Positions 1,754 to 32,473 of a stretch of 36,551 nt of DNA are shown here, piece after piece. How positions within the stretch are numbered: position 1 is the first letter of the stretch; each line of letters begins with the position of its first letter. The stretch is from positions 1-36,551 of the forward strand of contig SVGR01000011.1 in the NCBI GenBank assembly GCA_015056265.1, in the 5' to 3' direction. The notes beneath the pieces are model-generated. The model did not search any database and was not told where the DNA came from. It worked only from the letters and a program-made list of their open reading frames with translations. The stretch comes from Clostridiales bacterium. GTDB taxonomy: Bacteria; Bacillota; Clostridia; Christensenellales; Aristaeellaceae. A program made the position numbers and the translations under genes.

Positions 1754-1832
1754 ATTCCTTTTTCCTTCCGTATCAATGGTTCCGGCCCCCGAGGATGCGA
1801 GGGCCGGCGGTGGATGCGGGGGAAAATTCCCC

Positions 1833-2993: not shown

Positions 2994-3030
2994 GGTTCAT
3001 TCCCCTTTCAAACTTATGCAAAGATTCGTT

Positions 3031-3693
3031 TTACGGTTCCACGGGGCCGCCGCCCAGCAAACCATCCTGGCGCAGCATGGCCTCCAGTACGTCGATATCG
3101 GTGGAAATATCCAGATAATCCTCCTGATGGAGGGTGGAAAGCTGCTTTTCAAAGGCCCTTACCACCGCATCCATGGCGGTGCGGATTTGATCCCGGGTGG
3201 CGTTTGCCGCCTCTCCCTCTACGGCCCGCTCCTCCATCCGGCGGAAGGCTTCCAGCATTTTCAGGGTGGTGGGCATGTAATAATCCATGAATCGGCGCAG
3301 CTGATAGGCCTTTTGGGGCTGCTCCGCCACCGTTTCAAAAATTCTTTCCGCCGTATCGGAAATGCTGTCGATCTGGGCGGAGAGGGGGGCGTCCGCAATC
3401 AGATCATTTTCCTTGCGGATGCGGGAGAGCATCTCCTGCCCCCGGCTGATCAGACCATCAGCGGTCTGATCCCCGGTCTTGGGCAGTTTGCGCTGGACGG
3501 GGGCCGTTTGGGAAGTATCCAGCCCCTGGGCCATCACGCCCACAACCCATCCGGCCAGCAGGGCCAGCAGCCCGGCGATAAGAAAATGATGCCATTTGCT
3601 CAGCCCGAAAATCAAAAAGAACAGCAAAATCACTGCCCCGGCGGCGATGATGCCGGGCAGTATGCCTTTTTTTGCCTTTTGTTTGCCTTGCAA
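3031..3693 (-). CDS. xpaC: XpaC-type membrane protein, TelA partner
   Basis: 220 residues. A short basic N-terminus is followed by two adjacent hydrophobic segments (about residues 12-30 and 36-55), then a soluble helical domain. This is the layout of the XpaC family, named in Bacillus for 5-bromo-4-chloroindolyl phosphate hydrolysis and usually encoded beside TelA. Its molecular function is unclear; it probably anchors TelA at the membrane (inference from linkage). The start used is TTG at 3693, with AAAGGAGGG about 10 bases upstream; no better-placed ATG exists. It is the first gene of the minus-strand operon behind the promoter at 3798-3826. Confidence 0.88.
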   Translation of the reverse strand: MQGKQKAKKGILPGIIAAGAVILLFFLIFGLSKWHHFLIAGLLALLAGWVVGVMAQGLDTSQTAPVQRKLPKTGDQTADGLISRGQEMLSRIRKENDLIADAPLSAQIDSISDTAERIFETVAEQPQKAYQLRRFMDYYMPTTLKMLEAFRRMEERAVEGEAANATRDQIRTAMDAVVRAFEKQLSTLHQEDYLDISTDIDVLEAMLRQDGLLGGGPVEP

Positions 3694-3797
3694 AGGAATG
3701 ATCCCTCCTTTATTCCCGCTTGCGGGCGGATATTGACGGGCAGCAGAAAATCCCCTGCTTATCCCCGATGATTTTCAACTTTTGTATATCCGTAAAG

Positions 3798-3826
3798 AGT
3801 ATAACATATTTTCATTCCTATTTCAA
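3798..3826 (-). promoter_or_regulatory. Sigma-A promoter of the xpaC-telA operon
   Basis: On the minus strand, TTGAAA (3826-3821) is separated by 17 bases from TATACT (3803-3798). An extended -10 TGT sits directly upstream of the -10. Transcription would start near 3790 and give a leader of about 100 bases before xpaC. Confidence 0.75.
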
Positions 3827-3921
3827 TGCAATTCCGTAAAGGGCGGTGACGGGGAAAATCAGGGCGTCCAATCATAAAAATGGACGGCGGAAAGAAAAAT
3901 TTTTTTGTTTTTCGTTTTCTG

Positions 3922-3948
3922 GCAGGAATTTTCTCATTTTCGTCGAAT
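3922..3948 (+). promoter_or_regulatory. Sigma-H promoter upstream of hpf
   Basis: GCAGGAATT (3922-3930), 11 bases, then GTCGAAT (3942-3948). This fits every defined position of the Bacillus sigma-H consensus (RnAGGAWWW, 11-12 bases, RnnGAAT). In Bacillus subtilis the hpf orthologue yvyD is known to be sigma-H and sigma-B dependent, which supports the call. The leader would be about 120 bases and contains the hairpin CCGGCG-GG-CGCCGG at 3982-3995. Confidence 0.72.
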
Positions 3949-4075
3949 GAATGAAATACAAAGGAAACAAAATGAAAATAACCGGCGGGCGCCGGCGGCA
4001 GGGGGACCTGTCCACCGAAGGAATGGAGCATCCCTTCATTTTTTCGGAACCTGAAAATCAGAAAGGAGAAAGCTT

Positions 4076-4615
4076 ATGAAAACCAACATCACCGCCAAAA
4101 ACATGGTTGTTACCCCCGGCATTACCAACCGGATCACCAAAAAAACCGCCACCATGGAACGGTATTTAAAGCCCGATACCGAAATGTTTGTGCGCCTGCG
4201 CAGAGAGCGGGATGAGCGCATTTGCGAAATCACCGTGCCCATTAACGGCGTCACCCTGCGGGCCGAATCTTCCAGCAAGGACAACCTATTCATGTCCATT
4301 GACAGCGCCCTGGCCAAGCTGGAACGCCAGATTCTGCGCCATCGCACCAAGCTGGAAAAGCGGCTGCGTGAGGACGCCTATCGGGATGAAACCCCCGAAT
4401 TTATCGAAGATATCGCCGCCTATGGCACAGAGGCCCGCAAGGTGGTGCGTACCAAGGTCTTCCCTGTCCGCCCCATGGCCGTGGAAGACGCCATTTTGCA
4501 GATGGAACTGCTGGGCCACAGCTTCTTCGTATTCGTCAATATCGAAACGGAACGCACCAATGTGCTTTATCTGCGCAAAGACGGAAACCTGGGCCTGATG
4601 GTGCCCGAAACTTAA
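4076..4615 (+). CDS. hpf: Ribosome hibernation promoting factor, long form
   Basis: 179 residues, the length of long-form HPF. The N-terminal ~100 residues form the beta-alpha-beta ribosome-binding domain that occupies the mRNA/tRNA channel of the 30S subunit. A linker follows, and the last ~60 residues (from about VVRTKVFPVRPM through FVNIETERTNVLYLRKDG) are the dimerisation domain that joins two 70S ribosomes into 100S particles. The ATG at 4076 has AGAAAGGAGA upstream. The gene stands alone between divergent xpaC and trkA, and the sigma-H promoter at 3922 suggests induction at the transition to stationary phase or sporulation. Confidence 0.96.
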   Translation: MKTNITAKNMVVTPGITNRITKKTATMERYLKPDTEMFVRLRRERDERICEITVPINGVTLRAESSSKDNLFMSIDSALAKLERQILRHRTKLEKRLREDAYRDETPEFIEDIAAYGTEARKVVRTKVFPVRPMAVEDAILQMELLGHSFFVFVNIETERTNVLYLRKDGNLGLMVPET

Positions 4616-4737: not shown

Positions 4738-4772
4738 GATAGGGCAATCTATCCTGATTGACGGAGGAGTTC

Positions 4773-6140
4773 ATGCAGATTTTAATTATTGGCGGCGGGA
4801 AGCTGGGCATGTCCCTGGCCCGGAGCCTGATTAATGAGGGCCACGATATTACCCTGGTGGACCGAAGCGAAGAAGTGGTGCAGAAAGGCGCCGATACCCT
4901 GGATGCTCTATTCATCCGGGGGAATGGGGTGAGCATCGATACACTGGAGGAAGCAGAAGCGCAGCATGCGGATATTGTTATCGCCGTGACCGGCGGGGAT
5001 GAGATCAATATGCTGTGCTGTTTGCTTGCCAAAAAACTGGGGGCCCAATATGCCATTGCCCGCATCCGGGATCCGGAATACCTGCCCGGCCTGCCCTTTT
5101 TACAGAAGGAAATGTTCATCGATTATGTGGTGAATCCGGAGCGGGCAACCGCCCGGGAAATCAGCCGGATGCTGCGCTTCCCCTTTGCCGGAAATATCGA
5201 AACCTTCGCCCGGGGCCGGGTGGAAATGGTGGATTTCCGGGCTGCGGAGGGGGATCCGGTGGTGGATGTGCCCCTCAGAGAAATTTATAAGAAAAATCGA
5301 CATCTGCCCCAAGTGCTCTTTGCTGCAGTAGAGCGGGAAAGTAAGCTACTCATCCCCAAGGGCGATTTTGTCATTCAGCCTGGGGATCGGGTGCATGTGG
5401 TATCCGACGTAGAAACAATAACCAAATTTTTCCATCACATTGGGAAACATGCCGAAGCCGTTCGTTCCGTATTGCTGATGGGGGGCAGCCGTATCGCCTA
5501 TTATCTGGCGTCCACCCTGCTGAACATGCATATCAAGGTATCCATTATTGAAATGAATGCGGATAAGGCCCGGTTCCTGGCCGAGGAATTGCCGGGTGCT
5601 ACCATTATTCAGGGGGACGGCACCGATCAGGAGCTGCTCGCCAGCGAAGGGCTTGTCGATTTCCACGGTTTTGTGGGGCTTTCCAATCGGGATGAGGAAA
5701 ATCTGATGACCGGCTTCTATGCGGTGCAGCAGGGGGTCAGCAAGGTGATTGTTAAATCCAGCCGGGAAAATTATTCCGCCATCATGCATAATATGGGGCT
5801 GGATTCCATCATCAACACCCTGACCGTGGCCTGCAACAGCATCCTGCGCACCGTCCGTGCCCGGGCCAGCCGATCGTTTGCCGCTGTGCAGAGAATGTAT
5901 CGGCTGGTGGATGGCCAGGCGGAGGCACTGGAATTCATCGCCAGTGTTGATGAAGCCTATATCCATGTGCCCCTGAAGGATTTGCATATTGCTGCTGATT
6001 GCCTGATTGCGGTGATTGTGCGCAACGGACAGGTGAAGGTTCCCTTTGGTAATGATACCATTGAGGCGGGGGATCACGTGGTGGTTATCAGTCGCCGTTC
6101 CGGCCTCAGCGCCCTGAATGAGGTAGTGAGAAAGGATTAA
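4773..6140 (+). CDS. trkA: Trk potassium uptake protein TrkA (two RCK domains)
   Basis: 455 residues, a normal full-length TrkA. It is the cytoplasmic nucleotide-sensing ring subunit that gates the TrkH potassium channel. There are two tandem RCK modules. The first begins with the Rossmann motif ILIIGGGKLG and an acidic residue ending strand 2 (LVDRS). The second begins near residue 230 with VLLMGGSRIA and has IIEMNADKA. Each is followed by a TrkA-C subdomain ending in DRVHVVSD and DHVVVIS respectively. The ATG at 4773 is preferred because GGAGG (4763-4767) lies just upstream; an in-frame TTG at 4758 would overlap that site. trkH follows after three bases. Confidence 0.96.
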   Translation: MQILIIGGGKLGMSLARSLINEGHDITLVDRSEEVVQKGADTLDALFIRGNGVSIDTLEEAEAQHADIVIAVTGGDEINMLCCLLAKKLGAQYAIARIRDPEYLPGLPFLQKEMFIDYVVNPERATAREISRMLRFPFAGNIETFARGRVEMVDFRAAEGDPVVDVPLREIYKKNRHLPQVLFAAVERESKLLIPKGDFVIQPGDRVHVVSDVETITKFFHHIGKHAEAVRSVLLMGGSRIAYYLASTLLNMHIKVSIIEMNADKARFLAEELPGATIIQGDGTDQELLASEGLVDFHGFVGLSNRDEENLMTGFYAVQQGVSKVIVKSSRENYSAIMHNMGLDSIINTLTVACNSILRTVRARASRSFAAVQRMYRLVDGQAEALEFIASVDEAYIHVPLKDLHIAADCLIAVIVRNGQVKVPFGNDTIEAGDHVVVISRRSGLSALNEVVRKD

Positions 6141-6143
6141 CAA

Positions 6144-7589
6144 GTGAATTACAGGCTGGTTTTCCGGCTGATTGGCCGGTTATTGCTGATGGAGGCGGCG
6201 CTGATGCTGCCATCTTTGCTGGTATCCGTGCTTCATGGGGGCGGGGATACCATGGCGTTTGTTTATGCGATCCTGATTACCTGCGTGTGCGGGGCGCTCC
6301 CGGCGTTTCTGCTCAAGCCCAAGCAAACGGATCTGAATCCCCGGGACGGCATGGTGGTGGCAGGGATCAGCTGGGCGGTATTTTCCTTTTTCGGATGCCT
6401 GCCCTTTGTGCTGTCCGGCGCCATTCCTCATTTTGCCGATGCGTATTTTGAGACGGTATCGGGGTTCACCACCACCGGCGCCACCATCCTCACCAATATA
6501 GAGGCGCTGCCCAAGGGCATTCTGTTCTGGCGCAGCTTCACCCATTGGATCGGGGGCATGGGTGTGCTGGTATTTACACTGGCGGTGCTGCCCAAGCTAT
6601 CGGGGCGAAGTTCACACCTTGCCCGGGCGGAAAGCCCCGGCCCCACCTTTACCAAGCTGCTGCCGCGGATGGGTGATACGGCAAAAATCCTCTACGGGCT
6701 GTATATTGTGCTGTCTGTGGTGATGTTTTTGTGCCTGCTGGGCGCCGGGATGAATGTCTATGACGCCCTGATCCACACATTCGGCACCGCCGGCACCGGC
6801 GGATTTTCCAACTACAATGCCAGTGTAGCCGCCTTCAACAGCCCGTTGATTGAGTGGATCATTGCTTTGTTTATGATGCTCTTTGGCGTCAATTTTGCAG
6901 TATATTTCCACCTGATCCGCAGGGAACTGGGCCAGATTGGCAAAAACGAAGAATTGTGGGTGTATCTGGCGGTGGTGCTGGCGGCAACGCTGGCGATTAC
7001 CATTGCAATTCTGCCCCAGTACGGCAATTTCTTCACCGCTCTGCGCTACGGCTTTTTCCAGACTGCATCCATCATTTCCACCACCGGATTTGCCACGGCG
7101 GATTTCAATCTATGGCCGGTTTTTGCTCAGTCGGTACTGGTCTTGATGACTTTTACCGGGGCCTGCGCCGGCTCCACCGGCGGTGGATTCAAGATCAGCC
7201 GGTTGGTGCTGCTGACAAAATCCGGTTTCCGGGATTTCAAGCATACCCTGCAGCCCCGGAAGGTGGCGGTGGTGCGCATTGAGGGAAAGGCGGTGCAGGA
7301 AGGAACGCTGTCCACCCTGGGCGTGTATATGTTCCTGTATGTTTTATGCTTAATTGTGGGCACATTGTGGGTAGCGGCAGAGGCGCCGGATTTTACCACG
7401 GCCTTTACCACCTCCCTCACTTGCCTGAACAACGTGGGGCCTGGGCTGGGCGCCGTGGGCCCGGTGAATAATTTTTCCTTCTATTCGCCGGCCACCAAAT
7501 GGTTCCTGTCGCTGCAGATGCTGGCGGGACGTTTGGAAATCTACCCCATCCTGGCGCTGTTGGCCCCCAGCGTATGGAAGAAAAACTGA
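6144..7589 (+). CDS. trkH: Trk potassium uptake channel subunit TrkH
   Basis: 481 residues, an integral membrane protein of the TrkH/KtrB superfamily. It is the potassium-translocating subunit partnering TrkA. The four pseudo-repeats each show a pore loop with a filter Gly: TVSGFTTTGA, TFGTAGTGGFSN, SIISTTGFATAD and LNNVGPGLGAVG. A conserved GGMGVLVF follows the first pore. Start is GTG at 6144, three bases after the trkA stop, with the AAAGGA ribosome site inside the trkA end, which indicates translational coupling. The hairpin at 7602 ends the operon. Confidence 0.96.
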   Translation: MNYRLVFRLIGRLLLMEAALMLPSLLVSVLHGGGDTMAFVYAILITCVCGALPAFLLKPKQTDLNPRDGMVVAGISWAVFSFFGCLPFVLSGAIPHFADAYFETVSGFTTTGATILTNIEALPKGILFWRSFTHWIGGMGVLVFTLAVLPKLSGRSSHLARAESPGPTFTKLLPRMGDTAKILYGLYIVLSVVMFLCLLGAGMNVYDALIHTFGTAGTGGFSNYNASVAAFNSPLIEWIIALFMMLFGVNFAVYFHLIRRELGQIGKNEELWVYLAVVLAATLAITIAILPQYGNFFTALRYGFFQTASIISTTGFATADFNLWPVFAQSVLVLMTFTGACAGSTGGGFKISRLVLLTKSGFRDFKHTLQPRKVAVVRIEGKAVQEGTLSTLGVYMFLYVLCLIVGTLWVAAEAPDFTTAFTTSLTCLNNVGPGLGAVGPVNNFSFYSPATKWFLSLQMLAGRLEIYPILALLAPSVWKKN

Positions 7590-7601
7590 TGCATCAAGTC
7601 A

Positions 7602-7625
7602 AGCCGCCTTCGGGCGGCTTTTTTT
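7602..7625 (+). terminator. Terminator of trkA-trkH
   Basis: Perfect stem aagccgcc-ttcg-ggcggctt (7602-7621) with a stable UUCG tetraloop, followed by a T-run. A classic intrinsic terminator 12 bases after the trkH stop. Confidence 0.92.
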
Positions 7626-7648
7626 GACAGGCTGGCGGTCATTTGTGT

Positions 7649-7664
7649 TGTTTCACGTGAAACA
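7649..7664. promoter_or_regulatory. parS site 1 (ParB/Spo0J binding site)
   Basis: TGTTTCACGTGAAACA, a perfect 16-bp palindrome identical to the Firmicutes parS consensus. It lies between the trkH terminator and the BNR protein gene. ParB binds here, loads as a CTP-dependent clamp and recruits SMC for origin segregation. Confidence 0.93.
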
Positions 7665-7683
7665 CAGGGGAAAATACTTATAT

Positions 7684-7712
7684 TTGAAATTTATCCGGTA
7701 CTGTGATAAGAT
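7684..7712 (+). promoter_or_regulatory. Possible promoter of the BNR protein gene
   Basis: TTGAAA (7684-7689), 17 bases, TAAGAT (7707-7712). The -10 is only a 4/6 match, so this is tentative. It begins 20 bases after parS site 1. Confidence 0.4.
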
Positions 7713-7746
7713 GGAACCAAAAGAGCGTCCGAAAGGAGCAAAATCA

Positions 7747-8862
7747 ATGATTCGTTATCCTCAATTGGCTTGCCGCGAAAAATTGCCCACGATGCAGACG
7801 ACGCTTTCCACCCCGCATCCGGGGATGGAGTATACCCATCATCCCTCCATATGCAATTTTCAGGGGCGGTTTTATGCTATCTGGTCAGCCGGATTTATTG
7901 GCGAGGATGAAATCGGACAGCACGTGATGATTGCTTCCTCTGATGACGGGCTGCATTGGGAAGCGCCCCGGGCACTGGTCACCCCTGCCGACGTTCATTC
8001 CCCGCAGGGGTTGTTGTTCGCCGGCGGGCTGTATTGCCATGCGGGGCAAATGGCGGCCTATTTCGCCCATGTGGTTGATGACGTGCAATTGGGTCTGGCG
8101 GAGGGGGCCATCCGCTACCGGGACATTTATTGGGCCTATCGGATCACGAAGGACGGAAGAACCTGGTCAGAACCCATAAAAACAAACCTGGCCTTTGTGC
8201 CCAATCACGGGCCACAGGCGACCTCCACCGGCCGGCTTATCACCGCCGGGAACATCATGTTTCCCTACAGCGATGACCCAACCGGCACCGGCCTTTTTCA
8301 TCCCGCCGGAATTTATGGGGATTTTTTCTGTCCCGGTGAGGAGCGGGACGATCCGGACATCATTCATGCCGCTACGCCGGCCCGGGGATGGGATTGCAAT
8401 CTGATCTGCGAAGGATCCTTCTTTGAAACGGATGATGGGACGCTTCACATGCTGCTGCGGAGCAATTCGGGCTGTCTGTGGATGGCGGAAAGCCAGGACA
8501 ACGGCGCCACCTGGTCGGAACCCACCCCCACGGAGTTTCCCGATGAGGGCAGCAAATTTCACTGCGGACGGCTGCCGGACGGGCGGTTTTATGTTGTGAA
8601 CAACGGAACGCCCGGCGGGCCGGTCATCCGGCATCAGCTGATTCTCAGCTTATCCCAAGACGGTGAATGCTTTGATCAGCAGTATATTCTGCGGGATGAA
8701 CCCCGCCCCCCGCAGTTTACCGCGGGCAGGTGGAAGGGGGGCGCCTACGCCTATCCCCACACCCTGGTGCACGATGGAAAAATGTATATTATTTATTCGG
8801 TAAATAAAGAGCAAATTGAAGTATCCACCCTGGATTTGGAGGATATTCCGGAGGGCAAGTGA
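7747..8862 (+). CDS. BNR/Asp-box beta-propeller protein, sialidase-like
   Basis: 371 residues of the sialidase/neuraminidase beta-propeller superfamily. Asp boxes (SxDxGxxW/F type) are seen at about residues 64 (SSDDGLHW), 134 (TKDGRTW), 249 (SQDNGATW) and 301 (LSQDGECF). The conserved feature HHPSICNFQGRFYAIWS resembles uncharacterised exo-sialidase-like families. No signal peptide is visible, so it is probably intracellular; true sialidase activity is not established. The ATG at 7747 has GAAAGGAGC seven bases upstream; in-frame codons back to 7624 would cross parS site 1 and lack a ribosome site. It is monocistronic, with its own terminator, and sits between two parS sites. Confidence 0.82.
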   Translation: MIRYPQLACREKLPTMQTTLSTPHPGMEYTHHPSICNFQGRFYAIWSAGFIGEDEIGQHVMIASSDDGLHWEAPRALVTPADVHSPQGLLFAGGLYCHAGQMAAYFAHVVDDVQLGLAEGAIRYRDIYWAYRITKDGRTWSEPIKTNLAFVPNHGPQATSTGRLITAGNIMFPYSDDPTGTGLFHPAGIYGDFFCPGEERDDPDIIHAATPARGWDCNLICEGSFFETDDGTLHMLLRSNSGCLWMAESQDNGATWSEPTPTEFPDEGSKFHCGRLPDGRFYVVNNGTPGGPVIRHQLILSLSQDGECFDQQYILRDEPRPPQFTAGRWKGGAYAYPHTLVHDGKMYIIYSVNKEQIEVSTLDLEDIPEGK

Positions 8863-8879
8863 GGCTAATATCAAAAATG

Positions 8880-8901
8880 AACCGCTGAAAGGCGGTTTTT
8901 T
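8880..8901 (+). terminator. Terminator of the BNR protein gene
   Basis: Stem aaccgc (8880-8885) and gcggtt (8892-8897) with a six-base loop and a T-run, 17 bases after the stop codon. Confidence 0.85.
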
Positions 8902-8932
8902 CATGGGAAATTGGTGAATTCATCCGCTATTT

Positions 8933-8948
8933 TGTTTCACGTGAAACA
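8933..8948. promoter_or_regulatory. parS site 2
   Basis: A second perfect TGTTTCACGTGAAACA, identical to site 1 and 1284 bp from it. It lies upstream of recF, about 30 bases before a TTGACA box (8980-8985). Confidence 0.93.
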
Positions 8949-9043
8949 TTTTGAAGGGGAAGGAACGCTGAATTACTGTTTGACATCCGCCGGGTTTTGT
9001 GGCAAACTGTAAGATATGAAGAAATGCGGAAGGGGGTGGGCGA

Positions 9044-10135
9044 ATGCGGATTGAGGGCCTGCGGCTGCACGATTTTCGGGGATACAGGCAGGTGTTGCTG
9101 ACCCCGCCGGAGGGCGTAACCGTGCTGGTGGGCGAAAACGGCGCAGGGAAAACCAATCTGCTGGAAGCGGTGCATCTTTGCTGTCTGGGCCGCAGTCATC
9201 GCACATCCCAGGATAAAGAAATGATCCGCAAGGATCAGGAAACCGCCGCCGTGCAGCTGACGGTTCAGCAGCGGGACGGAAGGCACGAGGTGGGCGTGCG
9301 CCTGTTTGAAAATGCCCGGCGGAAGAAAATTGTCTACGTGAACGGCAAAACCGCCTCCCGGGTGGGGGAACTGATGGGCCATGCCACTTGTGTGATCTTT
9401 TCCCCGGAGGATCTATCCCTGGTGAAGGATGGACCCCAGGTTCGGCGCCGATTCCTGGATATGCTGCTTTCTCAGCAGCAGCGGGCGTATTTTTATGCGC
9501 TGCAGACCTATATGACAGCCCTGAAGCAGCGGAACGCCCTGCTGAAAACGGGGGATTATCGGCAATTGTCCGCTTGGGATGAACAATTGGCCCTCTCCGC
9601 CGCCCCTGTGATCCGGCTGCGCAGGGCCGCCTGCCAATCGCTGCAGGATTTTGCGGCAAAGCATTATTATTATATTGGTGGCCGGGAGCAGGAAGCCTTC
9701 TCCATGGCTTATGAGAGTCCCCTGCTGGAAAGCGCCGATCCGGCGGAAGATATGATGAAGGGGCTGGTTGCTTGCCGGGGTGAGGATATGCGCCGGATGA
9801 CCACCTGCTTCGGGCCTCACCGGGATGACGTGGCCCTGTATCTGCAGGGAGAGCCCATGAAGGCCTTTGCCTCCCAGGGGCAGATGCGCACGGCAGCCCT
9901 GTCCCTGAAGCTAGCGGCATTTGATTTATTGGAAAAGGCCCAGGGGGAGCCGCCGCTGCTGCTGTTGGATGACGTGCTCAGCGAATTGGACCCTGAACGG
10001 CGCAAGCGGCTGATTGCCCGGATCGGCAGGGCCCAGGCGCTGCTCACCTGCACTGCACGGGAGGATTTCATCGGCGCCCGGCCCGCCTGTGTGCTACGGG
10101 TGCAGAACGGAGAAATTGCAGAGGATCGGGAATGA
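9044..10135 (+). CDS. recF: DNA replication and repair protein RecF
   Basis: 363 residues, a normal RecF. It is an SMC-like ATPase that loads RecA at gaps with RecO and RecR. The Walker A GENGAGKT is at residues 30-37, the signature-like SQGQMRTAALSLK near 280, and Walker B LLLLDDVLSELD near 305-316. The N-terminal MRIEGLRLHDFRGY is typical. The ATG at 9044 follows GGAAGGGGG. A TTGACA at 8980-8985 may be the -35, but the matching -10 is weak. recF normally sits with dnaA, dnaN and gyrB near the origin; none of these is in the window, and the neighbours are a BNR protein and DUF378. Parallel parS sites flank it at 8933 and 10332. Confidence 0.97.
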   Translation: MRIEGLRLHDFRGYRQVLLTPPEGVTVLVGENGAGKTNLLEAVHLCCLGRSHRTSQDKEMIRKDQETAAVQLTVQQRDGRHEVGVRLFENARRKKIVYVNGKTASRVGELMGHATCVIFSPEDLSLVKDGPQVRRRFLDMLLSQQQRAYFYALQTYMTALKQRNALLKTGDYRQLSAWDEQLALSAAPVIRLRRAACQSLQDFAAKHYYYIGGREQEAFSMAYESPLLESADPAEDMMKGLVACRGEDMRRMTTCFGPHRDDVALYLQGEPMKAFASQGQMRTAALSLKLAAFDLLEKAQGEPPLLLLDDVLSELDPERRKRLIARIGRAQALLTCTAREDFIGARPACVLRVQNGEIAEDRE

Positions 10136-10144
10136 AAAATCTAT

Positions 10145-10177
10145 CGCTCGCAGGGACTTCCTGTCGGGCGTTTTTTT
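10145..10177 (+). terminator. Terminator of recF
   Basis: Stem cgctcg-cagg paired with cctg-tcgggcg around the loop gactt, with one bulge and one G-T pair, followed by seven T. It starts nine bases after the recF stop. Confidence 0.85.
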
Positions 10178-10331
10178 ATTTTATGAGCAAAAAATGCGAC
10201 GTCAAAGATTTCGATTCTAAGCCGTTTTTGCCGAAACGTTTGACCGGAAACCTTCCAAAGAATATAAAAATTGCTTAGAATGGACGAATGTGTTTTTTGG
10301 CGCTCAATTAACAGAAAAATGCAAACAAAAA

Positions 10332-10347
10332 TGTTTCACGTGGAACA
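10332..10347. promoter_or_regulatory. parS site 3
   Basis: TGTTTCACGTGGAACA. Read on the other strand it is TGTTCCACGTGAAACA, a known functional variant of the Bacillus parS site. It lies 1399 bp from site 2, in the gap after recF. Confidence 0.88.
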
Positions 10348-10392
10348 ATTTTCGACAAGGGACGACGGGACGCGAAACATTTTTTGCCTTGC

Positions 10393-10422
10393 GGATAAAA
10401 GCCGCTAAATGGGGCCACACTA
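10393..10422 (+). promoter_or_regulatory. Possible sigma-F/G-type promoter for DUF378 gene
   Basis: GGATA (10393-10397), 15 bases, GGCCACACTA (10413-10422). The -10 fits the sigma-F pattern GGnnAnAHTR, while the -35 deviates at one base from GYWTA. No good sigma-A promoter is visible in the same gap. Tentative. Confidence 0.3.
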
Positions 10423-10452
10423 TCCTTGAACATCAGGAAGGAGGAATGAAAC

Positions 10453-10659
10453 GTGGTATTGGATAAAATTGCGCTGCTGCTCACCATCATCGGGGCCATC
10501 AACTGGGGACTGATCGGAATCTTTCAATTCGATCTGGTGTCCTATATCTTCGGCGGTCAGGGGGCCCTGTTCAGCCGGATTATCTACACCCTGGTGGGCG
10601 CTGCCGGGCTGTGGTGCATTTCGCTGCTGTTCAGGGACAGCGATGTTGTAAAAGAATAA
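10453..10659 (+). CDS. DUF378 family small membrane protein
   Basis: 68 residues with two transmembrane helices: about residues 3-25, containing the family motif LLLTIIGAINWGLIGIFQFDLV, and about 40-60, ending in a charged tail. This is the DUF378 (YuzA-like) family, function unknown. GTG start at 10453 with GGAAGGAGG upstream at 10436-10444. It is monocistronic, with a clear terminator. Confidence 0.88.
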   Translation: MVLDKIALLLTIIGAINWGLIGIFQFDLVSYIFGGQGALFSRIIYTLVGAAGLWCISLLFRDSDVVKE

Positions 10660-10675
10660 GCTCTTTCAGGAACGG

Positions 10676-10704
10676 GCCGCTGCCGATGAAGCAGCGGCTT
10701 TTTA
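10676..10704 (+). terminator. Terminator of the DUF378 gene
   Basis: Perfect stem gccgctgc (10676-10683) and gcagcggc (10691-10698), seven-base loop, then a T-run. Confidence 0.9.
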
Positions 10705-10752
10705 TATGCCGTCAGAAGCACAGGAAAAACAAAAAAAGAGAGATTTCCGTGC

Positions 10753-10781
10753 TTGTTTCCCGGTTTCAGCCGTGTTATAAT
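10753..10781 (+). promoter_or_regulatory. Promoter of the DUF1846 gene
   Basis: TTGTTT (10753-10758), 17-base spacer, TATAAT (10776-10781) with an extended -10 TGT at 10773-10775. It lies 38 bases before the ATG at 10819. Confidence 0.78.
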
Positions 10782-10818
10782 AATTTGGTATGGGTAATTT
10801 ACGCAGGGGGAATGAGAA

Positions 10819-12300
10819 ATGCGCACCGGATTTGATCATGACAAGTATACCGCCATGCAGTCGGAGCATATTCGCAACCGCATCGCCCAGTTTGGCGGAA
10901 AGCTGTACCTGGAATTGGGGGGAAAGCTATTTGACGATAATCACGCTTCCCGGGTGCTGCCCGGCTTCCGGCCTGACAGCAAGGTGCAGATGCTGATGAC
11001 CCTGAAGGATCAGGCGGAACTGGTAATGGCCATCAATGCCGATGATATTGAAAACAACAAGGTGCGCGGGGATCTGGGCATCACGTATGACGCCGACGTG
11101 CTGCGCCTGATCGACGCCTTCCGTGCCATCGGCATGTATGTGGGTTGTGTGGTGCTTACCCGCTGGCGGGATCAGCCTGCCGCCGTCCATTTCAAGCAGC
11201 GGCTGGAAACGCTGGGCATCCGGGTGTACCGGCACTTCCCCATTGAAGGGTATCCCTACAACGTGAAACATATCATCAGCGAACAGGGATTCGGCAAGGA
11301 TGAATACGTGGAAACCACCCGCCCCCTGGTGCTGGTTACCGCCCCCGGCCCCGGCAGCGGAAAAATGGCCGTATGCCTGAGCCAGCTGTATCAGGATCAT
11401 ATCCGGGGCATCCAGGCCGGATATGCCAAGTTTGAGACCTTCCCCATCTGGAATCTGCCCCTGAAGCATCCGGTGAACGTGGCCTATGAGGCGGCCACCG
11501 CCGATCTGGACGATGTGAACATGATCGACCCCTTCCATTTGGAAGCCTACGGCCAGACCACCGTCAATTACAACCGAGACGTGGAGATTTTCCCGGTTCT
11601 CAGCGCCATTTTTGAAAAGATTTATGGATCCTCCCCCTATGCATCCCCCACCGACATGGGGGTGAACATGGTGGGCAACTGCATTGTGGATGATGAGGCA
11701 TGCAGCGCCGCCGCCAAGCAGGAAATTATCCGCCGGTATTATGCCGCCAGGTGCGCCCTGCTCCAGGGCCGCGCCACTGAGGCGGAAGTGGAAAAGCTGC
11801 TGTTCATGCTGCAGAAAATGGGCCTTTCCGACGAGGATCGCCCCGTTATTGCCGCCGCCCGCAGCCGTGCGGAAGAAACCGGCGCCCCTGCCCTGGCCAT
11901 GGAATTGCCCGATGGACGCATCGTCACCGGAAAGACGTCCAATCTGCTGGGGCCCTCCGCGGCGTTGCTGCTCAATGCGCTCAAGGCTCTGGGGAACATC
12001 GAAAAGGGCGCCCATCTGATCTCCCCCACGGTAATCGGGCCCATTCAATCCCTGAAATGCGATTATCTGGGCAATCATAATCCCCGGCTGCATACGGATG
12101 AAGTGCTGCTGGCCCTGTCCATCTGCGCCGCCGCCGATCCGGACGCCGCCCGGGCCATGGAGCAATTGCATGCCCTCAAGGGATGCGAAGTGCATTCCAC
12201 CGTCATTTTGCCCCATGTGGACGATAATATTTTCAAGCGGCTGAAGGTGAATATCACCTGCGATCCCCAGTATCAGACCCATAAACTATATCACAAGTAA
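10819..12300 (+). CDS. DUF1846 domain-containing protein
   Basis: 493 residues, full length for the DUF1846 family found widely in Firmicutes. The conserved N-terminal GFDHDKYTAMQSEHI, the YLELGGKLFDDNHASRVLPGF stretch and the TAPGPGSGKMAVCLSQLYQD motif are all clear. The last resembles a P-loop-like nucleotide site, though the family's biochemistry is not established. The C-terminal ~100 residues carry the conserved GPSAALLLNALK and PTVIGPIQSLK. Cytoplasmic; no signal or membrane segments. The orphan ABC permease starts 29 bases downstream and is probably co-transcribed. Confidence 0.92.
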   Translation: MRTGFDHDKYTAMQSEHIRNRIAQFGGKLYLELGGKLFDDNHASRVLPGFRPDSKVQMLMTLKDQAELVMAINADDIENNKVRGDLGITYDADVLRLIDAFRAIGMYVGCVVLTRWRDQPAAVHFKQRLETLGIRVYRHFPIEGYPYNVKHIISEQGFGKDEYVETTRPLVLVTAPGPGSGKMAVCLSQLYQDHIRGIQAGYAKFETFPIWNLPLKHPVNVAYEAATADLDDVNMIDPFHLEAYGQTTVNYNRDVEIFPVLSAIFEKIYGSSPYASPTDMGVNMVGNCIVDDEACSAAAKQEIIRRYYAARCALLQGRATEAEVEKLLFMLQKMGLSDEDRPVIAAARSRAEETGAPALAMELPDGRIVTGKTSNLLGPSAALLLNALKALGNIEKGAHLISPTVIGPIQSLKCDYLGNHNPRLHTDEVLLALSICAAADPDAARAMEQLHALKGCEVHSTVILPHVDDNIFKRLKVNITCDPQYQTHKLYHK

Positions 12301-12329
12301 TCCGGGACCATCATAAAGGAGATCTTTTC

Positions 12330-13169
12330 TTGGAAACCATCTATCAAATTATGGATTTTTTGCTGCCATTTGAGTGCTTCGAGATGAAGCTGATGAAGCA
12401 CGCACTGTTGGCGATTCTGCTTTTGACGCCGCTGCTTTCCTTGCTGGGCACCATGGCGGTGAACCGGCGGATGGCCTTTTTCTCCGATGCCCTGGGCCAC
12501 AGCGCCCTGGCGGGGGTGGGGCTGGGGATGCTGCTGGGGGTCCAGAGCGAGATGATCAGTATGATCGTCTTCGGTATCCTGTGGGCAGTGGCTATCAGCC
12601 GCATCAACCGCACCGGCGGCGCATCCGCCGATACCATCATCAGCGTGTTTTCCTCCACGGGAATAGCGGTGGGGCTGCTGATTCTATCCCGAAACGGCGG
12701 CTTTTCCAAGTATTCGGCGCTGCTGGCGGGGGACGTGCTGGCCATCACACCTGAGGAACTGGGCTATCTTTTGCTGGCGCTGCCCCTGGGGGTGGGCGCA
12801 TGGGCCTTATTGTACAACCGGCTGCTGCTGACGGCGGTGAATCCCGCCCTGGCCCAGAGCCGGGGCCTGCGCACCCGGGGCATCGAATACGCTTTTGTTT
12901 CCCTGGTGGCGGTGGCGGTGATGCTGTCCATCAAGTGGGTGGGGGTGCTGCTGATCAATGCGCTGCTGATTTTGCCTGCTGCGGCCGCCCGGAATTTTTC
13001 CCGCACCGCCCGGCAGCATGCCCTCTTCAGCGTGCTCATCGGCCTTCTTTCGGGGGTGGGCGGACTGATTGCCGCTTATTATCTGGATACCGGCGTGGGT
13101 GCTGCCGTGGTGCTTTGCGCCGCCGTATGCTATATCGTTTCTCTTCCCTTCCGCGGACGTACCCGATAA
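12330..13169 (+). CDS. Metal-type ABC transporter permease (ZnuB/MntB family)
   Basis: 279 residues, hydrophobic, with about eight membrane helices; ABC-3 family permease, normally for zinc, manganese or iron. Visible family features are NRRMAFFSDALGHSALAGVGLG after the second helix, and SIKWVGVLLINALLILPAAAARN, the coupling region near the C-terminus. Start is TTG at 12330 with AAAGGAG at 12315-12321; an ATG at 12351 is the alternative. No ATPase or binding-protein gene lies on either side, so it is an orphan here. The partner genes must be elsewhere, or it has a different role. Confidence 0.85.
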   Translation: METIYQIMDFLLPFECFEMKLMKHALLAILLLTPLLSLLGTMAVNRRMAFFSDALGHSALAGVGLGMLLGVQSEMISMIVFGILWAVAISRINRTGGASADTIISVFSSTGIAVGLLILSRNGGFSKYSALLAGDVLAITPEELGYLLLALPLGVGAWALLYNRLLLTAVNPALAQSRGLRTRGIEYAFVSLVAVAVMLSIKWVGVLLINALLILPAAAARNFSRTARQHALFSVLIGLLSGVGGLIAAYYLDTGVGAAVVLCAAVCYIVSLPFRGRTR

Positions 13170-13204
13170 AACACAGAAAAAACCAATAAATCAGAATTTT
13201 TGAT

Positions 13205-13232
13205 AAAAAAGGCTTGACATCAAGCCTTTTTT
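13205..13232 (+). terminator. Terminator of the DUF1846-permease unit
   Basis: Perfect stem aaaaaaggcttg (13205-13216), loop acat, caagcctttttt (13221-13232). The A-run and T-run make it bidirectional in form, but it follows the permease. Confidence 0.9.
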
Positions 13233-13279
13233 GTGAAATTATACAGATATTGGCTTAATGAAGAAAAGGGGGCGATAGA

Positions 13280-14146
13280 ATGATCCCGGATTTTGACGGA
13301 CTGCGGGAGGTGGTGCATTTTCCTGCCAACATCACCTTGATGTGCTACCGCAATCAGGAGGCGGAGGATTATCCCTCCCATTGGCATTCGGATATTGAAG
13401 TGATCATGCCTCTGGAAAATGAATATACGGTGCAGATTGACCATCGGGATTATGTGCTGAAGGAAGGCGATATTCTTTTCATCCCTCCGGGAGTGATCCA
13501 TGAATTATTCGCCCCTGCCCAGGGCAGCCGTATGATCATCCAGATCAGTTATGCTTTGATCAGCGCAATGAATGGATTTTATGAAACGCTGCATCATTTT
13601 TATCCCTGCCTGTTCCTGCCGGTCCGCAGTGAAGATACGCTGGTGGAGCAGCTGCGGTTTATCCTGATGGGGATTGACGAGGAATTTCGGGTTCGCGGTC
13701 CCTTCCATGGCGATATGCTGGAGGCCTATGCCCGCCAATTTCTGGTGTTGCTGGCCCGGAATGGGGATGCTTACGGCACCCGGCAGAGCTATCGGCGATA
13801 TACAAAATCGGTGGATGGATTTTTGCGGGTATGCGATTATATCAATCGGCACTGCATTGAATCGCTCACTATTTCTCAGCTGGCAGAGGTAGCCGGCTAT
13901 TCCAAATCGCATTTTTTGAGGATGTTCAAAGAATTTTCCAATATTTCCTGCGGGGAATATATCCAGCGCCAGCGGGTGGCCCTGGCCAGGAAATTGCTGG
14001 CTGATCCGGAAAGAAGCATCACCGAGATCGTTACCCATGCCGGATTTGGATCGGTGGCGTCATTTAACCGGGTATTCAAGGAGCAAATGGATTGCACCCC
14101 CACCCAGTATCGCAAAATGCTTCGCAGCCAAAATCGCAATATATGA
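13280..14146 (+). CDS. AraC-family transcriptional regulator with cupin sensor domain
   Basis: 288 residues. The N-terminal half is a cupin-type ligand-binding domain: HWHSDIEVIMPLE near residue 35 and DILFIPPGVIHE near residue 70. The C-terminal ~100 residues are a double helix-turn-helix AraC domain: first HTH LTISQLAEVAGYSKSHFLRMFK, then ITEIVTHAGFGSVASFNRVFK and the family end CTPTQYRKML. ATG at 13280 after AAAAGGGGG. It is directly upstream of the GH67 and GH3 genes on the same strand, so it is likely their sugar-responsive activator (inference). Confidence 0.93.
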   Translation: MIPDFDGLREVVHFPANITLMCYRNQEAEDYPSHWHSDIEVIMPLENEYTVQIDHRDYVLKEGDILFIPPGVIHELFAPAQGSRMIIQISYALISAMNGFYETLHHFYPCLFLPVRSEDTLVEQLRFILMGIDEEFRVRGPFHGDMLEAYARQFLVLLARNGDAYGTRQSYRRYTKSVDGFLRVCDYINRHCIESLTISQLAEVAGYSKSHFLRMFKEFSNISCGEYIQRQRVALARKLLADPERSITEIVTHAGFGSVASFNRVFKEQMDCTPTQYRKMLRSQNRNI

Positions 14147-14168
14147 TGAATTATGGGCATGAAATAAG

Positions 14169-14197
14169 TTGTAATTTATCATATCTGTGCTTATAAT
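14169..14197 (+). promoter_or_regulatory. Promoter of the GH67-GH3 operon
   Basis: TTGTAA (14169-14174), 17-base spacer, TATAAT (14192-14197), in an A+T-rich gap. A ten-base palindrome ATACATGTAT (14208-14217) lies just past the -10 and might be a regulator site. Confidence 0.7.
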
Positions 14198-14255
14198 ATA
14201 TATATAAATACATGTATATACATCACGACCCATGCAAGGAGCTTTTTGTGTTAAA

Positions 14256-16100: not shown

Positions 16101-16118
16101 TAAAGGAGGGTTTTTATC

Positions 16119-26756: not shown

Positions 26757-26821
26757 GCGGGGGAGGAGAGAAACGGCCTCCGGCGGGCAGGGGAATGATT
26801 CCCCTGCACCCCCACCTCACG

Positions 26822-26864
26822 ATTTGACTTGGACTTATTCCAATCGGCTTGTGTGCGTGTGGAA
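26822..26864 (+). repeat. Direct repeat copy 1 (43 bp)
   Basis: Starts atttgacttggactt and ends gtgtgcgtgtggaa; 39 of 43 bases match the second copy 145 bp downstream. All four differences are transitions. Outside the repeat, the spacing and flanks differ. Confidence 0.85.
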
Positions 26865-26910
26865 CGAGGGGAACGTGCGGGGGTTCTGCGCTTAACCGAG
26901 AGATTGCGGT

Positions 26911-26959: not shown

Positions 26960-26966
26960 TTTCACT

Positions 26967-29065: not shown

Positions 29066-32000
29066 TTATTCTCTGAGGGATACAGGGATGGCGCAGGCCC
29101 TTCGCAGACCGAAAATCACCGCTTCCTTTACCGGCGCGCCGGTGATTTGGGCGAGCGCACGGGCATACCAGCGGATCTGGCCCTGATAGCGGGCAAGCAG
29201 TGTTTCTTCATCGGCCAGATCGGTTTTATAATCTACCAGCACCCAACCGTCCCCCTCCATAAAGCACAGATCGATGACGCCCTGCACCAGGCTGAACTGA
29301 TCATAGCGCAGATTGAAGGCCCACTCCCGGTGGATCTCCCGGGCGGCCAGGGCGCGTTTCCCCAGGGGAGAGGTGAAAAATCCCCGCAGCCATTGGCGCT
29401 GCACCTGCTCCGCTTCCGCTTCGGTAAGCAGCCCCCTTTGCTGCAATTGGGCAAGGGCGGCCGCCCACCGACCGGCTGCAGCCAGCCCATAATCCATCAG
29501 CCCCATCACCCGATGGGTGATAACCCCCCGCTGCACGGCGGAAATCTGATCCTGCTGCAGGAAAGCGGGCAGGGGCACATCCGGGGGCAGAATGCGCTTA
29601 TCCTGGGGGGATTCCCAATCGTCCCCTTCCCTCTTCAGGGATTTGGCCAGGGCGGTGACGGAGGTTTTGAGCGGGGGCATGGGCTGGATTTTCCGCTGCA
29701 GCCGGGTCTTCACCCGTTCATCTCCCGGCCCTTCGGCGAAGGCGGGAAGGGCGATCACCCGGTGAGGGGCGGGGGTGGAAAGATCCTCGGCGGGCTGGAA
29801 TGCCATGCGCCAGATGCTGCCGTTATCTGCCATGCTCTGCCCGGTGCGGAAGCCGCCCAGGCTTTGCATCACCCAATCCAGCATGCAGGATGCGGCGCCG
29901 GCCGCCCAGGCGGTGGCGGGACGGGCCCATTTTTCCAGGGAGGCGGACAAACGCCGGGGGCTGCCCACCAAAATGAGCCGCTCCCGGGCCCGGGTCATGC
30001 CTACGTAGAGCAGCCGCGCCTCCTCCGCACGGGCTTCCCTTTCGTTCACGCCCCGCAGGGCTTGCATGGCGCAGGTATCCCGGGAAATGCGCTTTTCCCC
30101 ATCGATGAACTGCATGGCCAGGCCGTGCTCCCCGTGGATGCGCATCAGGCTTTCTTCCTTACCGCCCTTGCGGAAGGGACGGGCCAGCTCCAGCAGGAAA
30201 ACCACGGGAAATTCCAGGCCCTTGGATTTGTGCATAGTAAGAATGCGCACCACATCTTCATTTTCGCCCAGGGTTTTGGCGGAGGCGGCGTCATCGGCGG
30301 CCCGGAGCCGTCCAGTATCCTGCAAAAAGGCGGACAGCCCCTGCCGGGCAGCCTCTCCCTGGGCACGTTGTGCCAGCAGCCGCAGGTTGGCCTGCCTAAG
30401 TTCCCCATCCTCCATGGCCCCGGCCTGCATATACAGCCCGCTTTCCGTCAGCACCCGCCAGATCAGCTGATCCAGGGGCAGATTGCGGGAAAGGAAGCGC
30501 CAGTGATCCAATTGCCGCCACACCTGCCGGGCCTGATCCCCCAGGGGGCCCTCCTTTTCGGTGACGGCAAGAAAGGCCTGGTGGAAAGGCGTGCCCGGCG
30601 CCCGCTCCACCAGACGAATGCGGGCCAGGGTTTCCTCATCAAAGCCAAAGCAGGGACAGCGCAGGGCGGAAAGCAGGGGCAGATCCTGCAGCGGGTTATC
30701 AATCACCTGCAAAAGCTGCAGAAACTCCGCCACCTCCGGCAGATCGAAATACTGGGCGTCGGCGTCGCTGTAAACGGGAATGCCCTCCACTTGCAGCGCT
30801 CTTGCAATATAGGGCGCCCGGCCGGAGGCATAGCGCACCAACAGCGCTATATCCCGGTACCGAAGGGGACGGGATGTATCGCCCTCATGAACCTGGGCGG
30901 TGCGGATCAATTCCTTGATTTTCTTTGCCACAAAGGCCGCTTCATACCGATAGCCCTGGGAAAGTTCGCCCTCATCTTCTCCTTCTTCCTCTGCCTGGGG
31001 ACGGATAAGGTGAATTTCCACCGGGGCGCCGAAGGGGTGATTGCCGCCGGGGCGGAGCATGGCGGCCTCATCGTATTCGATTTCCGTTTCCTTTTCCCGC
31101 ATGGCGTGGCGGAACACCTGGTTTACAGCCGCCAGCACATTTTCATGGGAACGGAAATTCTGCTGCAGTAGAATTTTGCGGCAGGGGGCGTCCTCCAGCA
31201 GGGAATAATCCTGATATTTGCGCAGAAATAGGGTAGGATCGGCCTGGCGGAAGCGATAAATGCTCTGCTTTACGTCCCCCACCATGAAGAGGGTATTATT
31301 CATGCCCTGATGCAGGGCGTTTACGATGGCCTCCTGAATGGCGGATACATCCTGATATTCATCCACAAACAGGGCGTCAAATTCTTCCGCCACTTGCCTG
31401 CGTATCGCCTCCTGGGAGAGGGCCTTCAGCGTCAGATGTTCCAGATCGCTGTAATCCAGGTAGTTTTTCTTTTGCTTCAGGGAAAAATACAGCCCTGCCA
31501 TTTTTTCCGTCAGGCCGCACAGCGCTTTCAGGGCCGGGAGGGTGTGGATCATATCCCCTTCTGCCCTTGCTTCATTTTGCGCAAGCATTCCCCGGGCGGC
31601 CTTGATGCGGTTCTTCCATTCCTCACGGAGGGCCTTATATTTCATCGCCACCTCCGGGCTCTCGTCGGGTGCGGCTTTTTTCGTGCTCAGCCGGGCAAAG
31701 CTGGTATCGCATGCCGCAAGCCTTCCCTCCCGAGCGGCCTCCAGCAGGGTATGGGTGAGGCCGATATCCGCATCCAGGGCGGGCAGGTAGCGTTCAGGCC
31801 CGCCGGGCTGATTGAGCAGCGCCTCCATGGCGGGCAATAGCTCCCGGGCGCCTTCCAATTGCCGGGCGCACAGATCCTGCAGCAAGGGCTGCCAATGGGA
31901 GAGGGCGGCGGCGTCATCGCCGGTGTGATCTTTCGCCCATTGCCAGGGATCCGCCCGGGCCATGAGAAATTCGTACAGCTGACCCATGAGAAAAAGGATC

Positions 32001-32473
32001 TGTTCCTGTTCCAACTGCAAAAACAGGGCCTGCTCATCCTTCGTTGGATCGGCGAGGGCCTCTTCCAGGGCCTGATCCATGGCCTGGGCCTTCAGCTTTT
32101 CCAATTGCCCCTCGTCCCCGATGCGGGCCATGGGGTCCACCCCGGCGGCCTGGAAGTGCTTTTTGATCACCCGGCTGCAGAAAACGTGTAATGTACAGAT
32201 GGCGGCCCGGTTCACCCGCAAGGCCTGGCGGCGCAGGTGGGCGCTGTCCGCCCCTTCTTTGGAAAGCCGGGCGGCAATGCGTTCCCGCATTTCCCCGGCG
32301 GCGGCCCGGGTGAAGGTGACGATCAGCATACGGTCGATGCGGCCCCCCTCCCGGAGCAGGGAAATCACCCGCTCCACCAGCACCGCGGTTTTTCCCGATC
32401 CTGCCGCGGCGCTTACCAGCACGCTGTGATTGCGGGCGTCGATGGCCGCCTGCTGCCCAGCTGTCCAACGCAT
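29066..32473 (-). CDS. addA: ATP-dependent helicase/nuclease subunit A (AddA)
   Basis: 1135 residues, slightly shorter than Bacillus AddA (about 1230). It is a UvrD-type superfamily 1 helicase: Q motif WTAGQQAAI, Walker A AAAGSGKT (residues 22-29), motif II LFVDEYQDVS, NFRSHENVL, and LTMHKSKGLEFPVVF followed by LLYVGMTRARERL. It is fused to a C-terminal PD-(D/E)xK nuclease: GVIDL (D1068) and VDYKTD (D1081, K1083). With AddB it resects double-strand breaks and loads RecA. AddB is usually just upstream, but here the upstream neighbour is the divergent mreB-type gene. ATG at 32473 after CCGGAGG. Confidence 0.97.
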   Translation of the reverse strand: MRWTAGQQAAIDARNHSVLVSAAAGSGKTAVLVERVISLLREGGRIDRMLIVTFTRAAAGEMRERIAARLSKEGADSAHLRRQALRVNRAAICTLHVFCSRVIKKHFQAAGVDPMARIGDEGQLEKLKAQAMDQALEEALADPTKDEQALFLQLEQEQILFLMGQLYEFLMARADPWQWAKDHTGDDAAALSHWQPLLQDLCARQLEGARELLPAMEALLNQPGGPERYLPALDADIGLTHTLLEAAREGRLAACDTSFARLSTKKAAPDESPEVAMKYKALREEWKNRIKAARGMLAQNEARAEGDMIHTLPALKALCGLTEKMAGLYFSLKQKKNYLDYSDLEHLTLKALSQEAIRRQVAEEFDALFVDEYQDVSAIQEAIVNALHQGMNNTLFMVGDVKQSIYRFRQADPTLFLRKYQDYSLLEDAPCRKILLQQNFRSHENVLAAVNQVFRHAMREKETEIEYDEAAMLRPGGNHPFGAPVEIHLIRPQAEEEGEDEGELSQGYRYEAAFVAKKIKELIRTAQVHEGDTSRPLRYRDIALLVRYASGRAPYIARALQVEGIPVYSDADAQYFDLPEVAEFLQLLQVIDNPLQDLPLLSALRCPCFGFDEETLARIRLVERAPGTPFHQAFLAVTEKEGPLGDQARQVWRQLDHWRFLSRNLPLDQLIWRVLTESGLYMQAGAMEDGELRQANLRLLAQRAQGEAARQGLSAFLQDTGRLRAADDAASAKTLGENEDVVRILTMHKSKGLEFPVVFLLELARPFRKGGKEESLMRIHGEHGLAMQFIDGEKRISRDTCAMQALRGVNEREARAEEARLLYVGMTRARERLILVGSPRRLSASLEKWARPATAWAAGAASCMLDWVMQSLGGFRTGQSMADNGSIWRMAFQPAEDLSTPAPHRVIALPAFAEGPGDERVKTRLQRKIQPMPPLKTSVTALAKSLKREGDDWESPQDKRILPPDVPLPAFLQQDQISAVQRGVITHRVMGLMDYGLAAAGRWAAALAQLQQRGLLTEAEAEQVQRQWLRGFFTSPLGKRALAAREIHREWAFNLRYDQFSLVQGVIDLCFMEGDGWVLVDYKTDLADEETLLARYQGQIRWYARALAQITGAPVKEAVIFGLRRACAIPVSLRE

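Follow-up and report, generated by a model that had tools for sequence, protein, structure and literature searches.

Contig SVGR01000011.1 of the draft assembly GCA_015056265.1 (Clostridiales bacterium of the rumen, family Aristaeellaceae), analysed at its full length of 36,551 nucleotides and referred to here as the window, carries three short palindromes around recF. These are very probably genuine chromosomal parS sites, expected to load the organism's own ParB in an origin region that holds oriC, dnaN and recF; dnaA was not found in that region, nor was parB in this genus, and parS stayed. The steps of ParB binding, sliding and SMC loading in this reading are carried over from related systems. 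The window is the entire contig C68 of a draft genome of 2,363,515 bases in 176 contigs, with 77.65% completeness and 5.13% contamination.

parS sites around recF

Site 1 (7649..7664) and site 2 (8933..8948) are copies, without any mismatch, of TGTTTCACGTGAAACA, which is presumably the same 16-bp palindrome as the Bacillus subtilis/Caulobacter-type chromosomal parS, and site 3 (10332..10347) is the variant TGTTTCACGTGGAACA with one mismatch; no strand is assigned to any of them. They occupy three successive gaps, between the TrkH gene and a BNR-repeat gene (gap borders 7589 and 7747), between the latter and recF (8862 and 9044), and between recF and a DUF378 gene (10135 and 10453), with start-to-start spacings of 1284 and 1399 bp. 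The sequence-only reading had described two perfect copies and one variant within 2.7 kb, about 1.3-1.4 kb apart, each in an intergenic gap and at a density beyond chance, and this description holds. At up to 3 mismatches to TGTTTCACGTGAAACA, the 36,551 bases contain these three matches only, with a shuffle mean of 0.04 and none of 100 shuffles reaching three. Rather than being scattered over the genome, the sites are clustered: the whole draft genome yielded no further site at up to 2 mismatches, and the reversed control pattern gave zero.

The longest mechanical frame of the BNR-repeat gene, opening with TTG at 7624, would overlap site 1; a start at ATG 7747, with AAAGGAG upstream, fits better. 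Site 2, which precedes the start codon of recF by 95 bp and its -35-like box by 31 bp, is the counterpart of a site conserved before recF across the genus. The site 3 variant recurs at the matching place in the close relative G001 (C52:23664); of the 56 distinct contexts of parS with at most 1 mismatch at own and genus loci, 46 are perfect and 5 show this variant in either orientation. Tandem doublets or triplets with 37-47 bp from start to start were observed in ten relatives (G003, G006, G013, G019, G023, G024, G025, G027, G028 and G031). Around the window sites no second copy was found at this spacing: shifted overlaps aside, even the best-matching sequences no more than 120 bp away have at least 5 mismatches.

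The proteins needed to use such sites are encoded on other contigs of the same genome. Contig C170 (11,379 bases) carries parB (1537-2385, minus strand; ParB_N, HTH_ParB and ParB_C domains), the adjoining parA (2420-3178, minus strand) and dnaA (plus strand, frame opening at 4095 and ending at 5513), and an SMC gene above the curated cut-off lies on C103. In Caulobacter numbering, the C170 ParB has R173 and G201 together with Q162, G170, K171, S172, N178 and R204; one study describes R173 and G201 as conserved in all extant ParB orthologues and the listed residues as contacting parS (PMC7383237). Absence of a ParB gene would have spoken against the sequence-only reading, and a ParB with parS-type residues is present. 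A 16-bp palindrome, a ParB with parS-type helix-turn-helix contacts, ParA and SMC thus occur together in one genome, as for chromosomal parS.

By analogy with the known biochemistry of the family, the C170 ParB would close as a clamp on each parS and then slide onto the adjoining DNA, ParA would move the ParB-DNA complex, and the complex would load SMC; of the newly replicated chromosome, the origin region would thereby be the first part to separate. The three sites within 2.7 kb would then act as one compact loading zone. A published account of such systems has ParB nucleating at parS, spreading, being moved by ParA and recruiting SMC (PMC7333895).

Conservation and a possible operator role

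Conservation was surveyed in 60 genomes, the own genome included, at up to 1 mismatch. Sites were found in 52 of them (the own genome, 28/28 of the same genus, 7/7 others of the same family and 16/24 of the same order), with 1-4 sites each, and the reversed control pattern gave no match in any of the 60. Distances to recF were counted in the 29 genus genomes, own included, except G018, whose recF is divided over contigs: in 23 of 28 the gap from the end of a site to the recF start measures 58-103 bp, and in 26 of 28 it stays within 400 bp, the remaining two, G012 and G016, having sites only at or after the recF 3' end. Alignment of 19 recF-upstream sequences placed a site within 260 bp in 18; eight loci with a cut recF were omitted from it, their positions being taken from genome-wide site and recF coordinates, and the G005 site was taken from L040, a contig whose recF coordinates equal those of G005:C271.

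The 16 bp are kept, and flank identity is at chance (0.25-0.30 over 40 bp per side). High identity within parS is partly circular because the sites were chosen by pattern; on sequence comparison, the non-circular part of the conservation is the chance-level flanks together with the constant position before recF. In G009, two full-length recF genes (on C34 and C226; 81% and 79% identical to the window recF) each have their own parS, and this draft genome is probably mixed.

Outside the genus, 17 genomes from 9 genera were sampled for neighbourhood, and in 12 of them a match to an AddA-like helicase-nuclease gene starts 16-530 bp downstream of a parS. The order dnaN-recF-parS-addA occurs in one run in G141, G180 and G076 and is, judging from gene order, probably the older one, from which both the recF-parS pairing of the genus and the parS-addA pairing of the other genera may derive. 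The window has its own gene of this kind (29066..32473, minus strand; Pfam UvrD and PDDEXK), for which the name AddA is assumed here; no parS lies beside it, and its counterpart elsewhere in the family is often a parS neighbour.

This constancy of position also bears on an alternative, namely that the sites are operators at which ParB or another factor represses or tunes recF (addA in other genera), tying repair genes to the partition complex. The genus-wide site stands directly upstream of a putative promoter, in the window 8980..9008 on the plus strand (TTGACA, a 17-nt spacer and CAAACT within TGTGGCAAACT), and TTGAC and TGGCAAACT precede recF in 19/19 aligned sequences (own and 18 genus relatives). 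In Pseudomonas aeruginosa, one study reports that ParB represses promoters next to the intergenic parS3 and parS4 (PMC5521831). Set against these placements, the stretches examined around the sites of G164, G193, G067, G194 and G033 contain no recF or AddA-like match, G012 and G016 have no site (up to 1 mismatch) before recF, and shared descent from the dnaN-recF-parS-addA order would account for the neighbourhood without any regulation. As an alternative explanation, the operator reading is unlikely. Repression could add to partition rather than replace it: since the site abuts the promoter-like element of recF, some effect of ParB on recF transcription is plausible by analogy.

Position of the replication origin

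The clearest view of the origin comes from three near-complete genomes of the same family, in which GC skew was sampled in 20-kb stretches. In G141 (contig C1, 3,260,197 bases), the skew is negative in each of the 10 samples between 172 kb and 1.57 Mb, comes close to zero at 1.664-1.684 Mb and is positive in 6 of the 8 samples from 1.72 Mb onward; it flips at the parS/recF stretch (-0.092, +0.005, +0.118). The local skew minimum lies at 1,668,750, followed by a DnaA-box cluster from about 1,670,728 (7 in 600 bp), then dnaN and recF, with parS at 1,673,354 and 1,674,111. G180 (C1, 3,406,483 bases) has the same gene order, a flip from negative to positive at the parS/recF stretch (-0.103, +0.018, +0.133), a local minimum at 2,591,000 and parS at 2,593,162. 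In G077 (C3, 3,971,881 bases) there is a single flip near 63 kb, at dnaN-recF, with parS at 87 kb; apart from the sample straddling the flip, all 24 agree in sign with a single origin there, the sample at 3,800,001 being near zero. Across the three, parS is no more than 25 kb away from the minimum of the skew and sits about opposite its switch from positive to negative, far from the terminus, where a location would have contradicted the proposal that these sites mark the origin-proximal chromosome. That proposal is supported in the relatives and, by inference from them, for the window.

DnaA-box clusters beside dnaN or recF support the same placement. In G141, G180, G077, G076, G190, own contig C98 and 9 genus relatives, they exceed all 30 order-1 Markov randomisations made of each stretch. 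Groups of DnaA boxes were also observed beside or around parS in G122 (C30, 28823-28999) and G183 (C40, 1468-1670), with no dnaN match in the stretch.

In the window's own genome, dnaN lies on C98 (7385-8503, minus strand), with 7 DnaA-like boxes in 600 bp starting at 8589; the skew also turns on this contig, and the own oriC is probably situated there beside dnaN. Contig C52 of G001 is collinear with window positions 4763-18179 and also matches the right end and the dnaN of C98; as this one contig joins window-like and C98-like DNA, the parS zone of the window most likely lies tens of kilobases from the own oriC. A dnaN gene was found in 24 of the 29 genus genomes. In 10 of these (G001, G006, G009, G013, G021, G022, G023, G024, G025 and G028) it shares the recF contig, and 1.2-35.8 kb separate the boxes on the dnaN side from the nearest parS; clusters of 5-7 boxes in 600 bp are present in 9 of the 10. 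A skew minimum coincides with the boxes on the short contigs of G022 and G023, and roughly so in G001, G021 and own C98. Clustering of the sites in the origin region is hence seen by skew in G141, G180 and G077, by DnaA boxes at dnaN on 10 genus contigs, and for the own genome solely through synteny with G001.

The same observations bear on a second alternative, in which the window lies far from the origin and parS drifted with recF to another place in this species. The distribution of dnaN, DnaA boxes and the skew turn on C98, and of dnaA and parAB on C170, with none of these on the window contig, would suit it. It is nevertheless very unlikely, given that parS-recF and dnaN share one contig in 10 of the 24 genus genomes with dnaN, at the distances given above, and that the close relative G001 holds window-like and C98-like DNA on a single contig.

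Several observations weigh against the main reading and have to be set beside this evidence. The window lacks dnaN and any exact TTATNCACA DnaA box over its 36.5 kb, its box count with up to 1 mismatch allowed never exceeds 2 per 600 bp, and its skew turns just weakly near 4 kb; the boxes of G009 are weak (2 in 600 bp), and no clear skew minimum falls at the boxes in G006, G009, G013, G024, G025 and G028. In G141, 2 of the 8 samples from 1.72 Mb on have a sign opposite to a simple two-arm pattern, and one sample of G180 (1.40 Mb, about 93 kb from dnaA, +0.026) is likewise discordant, after which negative skew returns. Finally, 8 of the 24 order-level relatives have no site at up to 1 mismatch.

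The window itself was considered as the carrier of oriC and rejected: it has no DnaA-box cluster, and the first 20 kb are no denser in boxes than randomised sequence (25 of 30 randomisations reach the count), despite a divergence of genes at about 3.7-4.07 kb.

Displacement of dnaA

The arrangement dnaA-oriC-dnaN-recF of the classic Firmicute origin is not present in this genome, where dnaA is on C170, dnaN on C98 and recF on C68. Searches of the 29 genus genomes located dnaA in 27 and parB (at least 69% identity) in 28; the recF contig carries dnaA in 0/27 and parB in 0/28, and dnaA and dnaN share a contig in none of the 22 genomes in which both were found. Of the 27 genomes with dnaA, 16 have parB no more than 5 kb from it and the remaining 11 have parB on another contig. 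In G002, 72 kb or more separate dnaA from the nearest parS (reckoned from contig ends and assuming correct assembly), and the cumulative skew rises through dnaA; around dnaA of G006, G007, G013 and G020 the skew has no clear pattern.

In the near-complete genomes, the distance from dnaA to the skew minimum is 1.21 Mb (G141), 1.28 Mb (G180) and about 46 kb (G077), and in all three dnaA sits in a 20-kb stretch of overall negative skew. In G141 and G180, this is 74-75% of the distance to the opposite point, which is roughly where the skew switches from positive to negative. These two genomes belong to one genus, and their displacement of dnaA is probably a single event. The sequence-only reading had advised plotting the sites against GC skew and dnaA: the skew half of this advice was sound, a minimum lying near parS in the relatives, whereas dnaA proved misleading, being more than 1 Mb off in G141 and G180. 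Displacement is not universal in the family, as dnaA is beside dnaN in G029, G033 and G193, and the order-level relative G036 has a classic dnaA-dnaN origin where its skew is locally lowest, and a parS next to parB at a distance of 31 kb. In 40 samples of 20 kb from G141 and G180, which cover part of each genome, no parB match was found.

The dnaA region was also considered as the origin and rejected, one overall skew sign running through dnaA in G141 and G180 (20-kb stretches) and G002 (40-kb stretch). Directly upstream of the displaced dnaA of G141, G180 and G002 there are 1-3 exact DnaA boxes, which probably serve autoregulation; one to three such boxes upstream of the displaced dnaA were noted at L009 4072, L058 9707 and L083 10721-10811. 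The G180 count (4 in 600 bp) exceeds all 30 randomisations, so these boxes are real, though not at a lasting skew switch; elsewhere the observed count was reached by 1/30 randomisations in G002 (observed 4), 5/30 in G141 and 7/30 on own C170.

A Noc-like paralogue

A second ParB/Noc-type protein is encoded in the own genome at L010 (G000:C101, 11510-12631), on a contig other than that of parAB; in G049, G057 and G059, unlike the own genome, a second ParB-type match was observed near parB. The C101 protein has the Noc-type residues K179, K184 and R201, with V at 173 instead of the Q of Noc. The consensus of the Noc-binding site (NBS) is ATTTCCCGGGAAAT, and no match to it above 12/14 bases was found in the window, C170, 20 kb of C101 or C98. 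That the palindromes belong to this paralogue instead of ParB is hardly credible, for although the genome does encode such a protein, its residues are those of Noc while R173 and G201 of the C170 protein are those of ParB, and the three sites match parS and not the Noc consensus.

Genes and terminators in the neighbourhood

Around the sites, all genes run on the plus strand: the TrkH cation transporter (6144..7589, PF02386), the BNR-repeat (sialidase-like) protein (7747..8862), recF (9044..10135, TIGR00611, 344 bits), the small DUF378 protein (10453..10659, PF04070) and a DUF1846 protein (10819..12300). In the searched stretches of relatives, no match to the BNR protein was found at expectation values up to 1e-15. 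The sequence-only reading had placed each site near a terminator, which applies to part of them. A clear intrinsic-terminator-like hairpin with a T-run follows TrkH (7601..7620, plus strand), ending 28 bp before site 1, and a weaker one follows the BNR gene before site 2 (8880..8897; strand left unassigned, as the scan gave the minus strand and a plus-strand T-run is visible); just before site 3 the terminator scan listed none on the plus strand. Enrichment of terminators was rejected, the 7 terminator-like sites in the window, with 4.5 +/- 2.1 expected, giving no clear excess.

Further left (554-4076), three leftward genes (a phosphodiesterase, TelA and a PF10112 protein) diverge from a rightward run opening with an S30AE/HPF gene at 4076, and the skew is flat to the left of this divergence at about 4 kb and rises to its right. 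Sugar hydrolases at 14232-18197 and 27412-29043 (GH67, a beta-xylosidase-like protein below the curated cut-off, and GH123) are fitting for a plant-fibre gut bacterium. Spore-germination genes of the GerA/GerAC type and a SpoVB-like protein below the curated cut-off lie at 21495-25278 and 34133-35494. Copies of a dispersed repeat (about 90-230 bp long, identity 75-86%) occur at 26773-27250 of the window, on C98 (6810-7193) and on G001:C52 (22943-23189), and the repeat is common to several genus contigs.

Relation to known systems and implications

The system resembles the Bacillus subtilis/Caulobacter type of ParABS in its ParA-ParB pair, SMC and parS near the origin, as described for that type (PMC7333895), and differs from it in the small number of sites in this genus, 2-4 per genome, and in their place beside recF on a contig with neither parB (0/28) nor dnaA (0/27). 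Pseudomonas aeruginosa likewise has parS at recF in the origin region, although there parS1 and parS2 lie inside the recF gene and dnaA-dnaN-recF-gyrB form one operon (PMC5521831), whereas the sites described here lie between genes, with dnaA at another place. For Caulobacter, one report describes an insertion hot spot for additional parS copies that spans recF and gyrB (PMC5815017). Given this hot spot and the P. aeruginosa sites, parS beside recF is to be expected of an origin-near gene.

The parS cluster itself is therefore of a known kind, and so in general is an origin away from dnaA, since the Ori-Finder 2022 paper notes that oriC is not always near dnaA (PMC10225481). What is new is an origin that retains oriC, dnaN, recF and parS but lacks dnaA. 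Compared with known dnaA-distant origins, oriC here stays at dnaN-recF near parS with dnaA up to 1.28 Mb away, while the order-level relative G036 keeps the classic origin. No description of parS-recF with a displaced dnaA in this group was found in the titles and abstract openings of open-licence literature, which is weak evidence of absence. Bacterial origins are commonly placed by first locating dnaA, which in Ori-Finder 2022 is by default the principal indicator gene, adjusted by lineage (PMC10225481). Here, dnaA alone would misplace the origin, by more than 1 Mb in two genomes, and parS with dnaN-recF places it correctly.

The arrangement also touches on the control of initiation. According to one study, an autorepressor model of initiation control is workable provided that the operon is close to oriC (PMC5835720), and a lineage with dnaA away from oriC makes this question testable in nature. 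In one genus (G141, G180) dnaA sits at three quarters of the distance from origin to terminus, and in the window's genus parB is close to dnaA in 16 of 27 genomes. A broader and quite doubtful proposal is that the initiator gene has been uncoupled from the origin in much of the family, with oriC, dnaN, recF and parS together or near one another and dnaA elsewhere, that the dnaA copy number would rise late, and that parS beside the recF or addA promoter may let the partition complex sense or set the expression of repair genes. If true, the late rise in dnaA copy number, instead of one right after initiation, would mean a different timing logic of initiation control.

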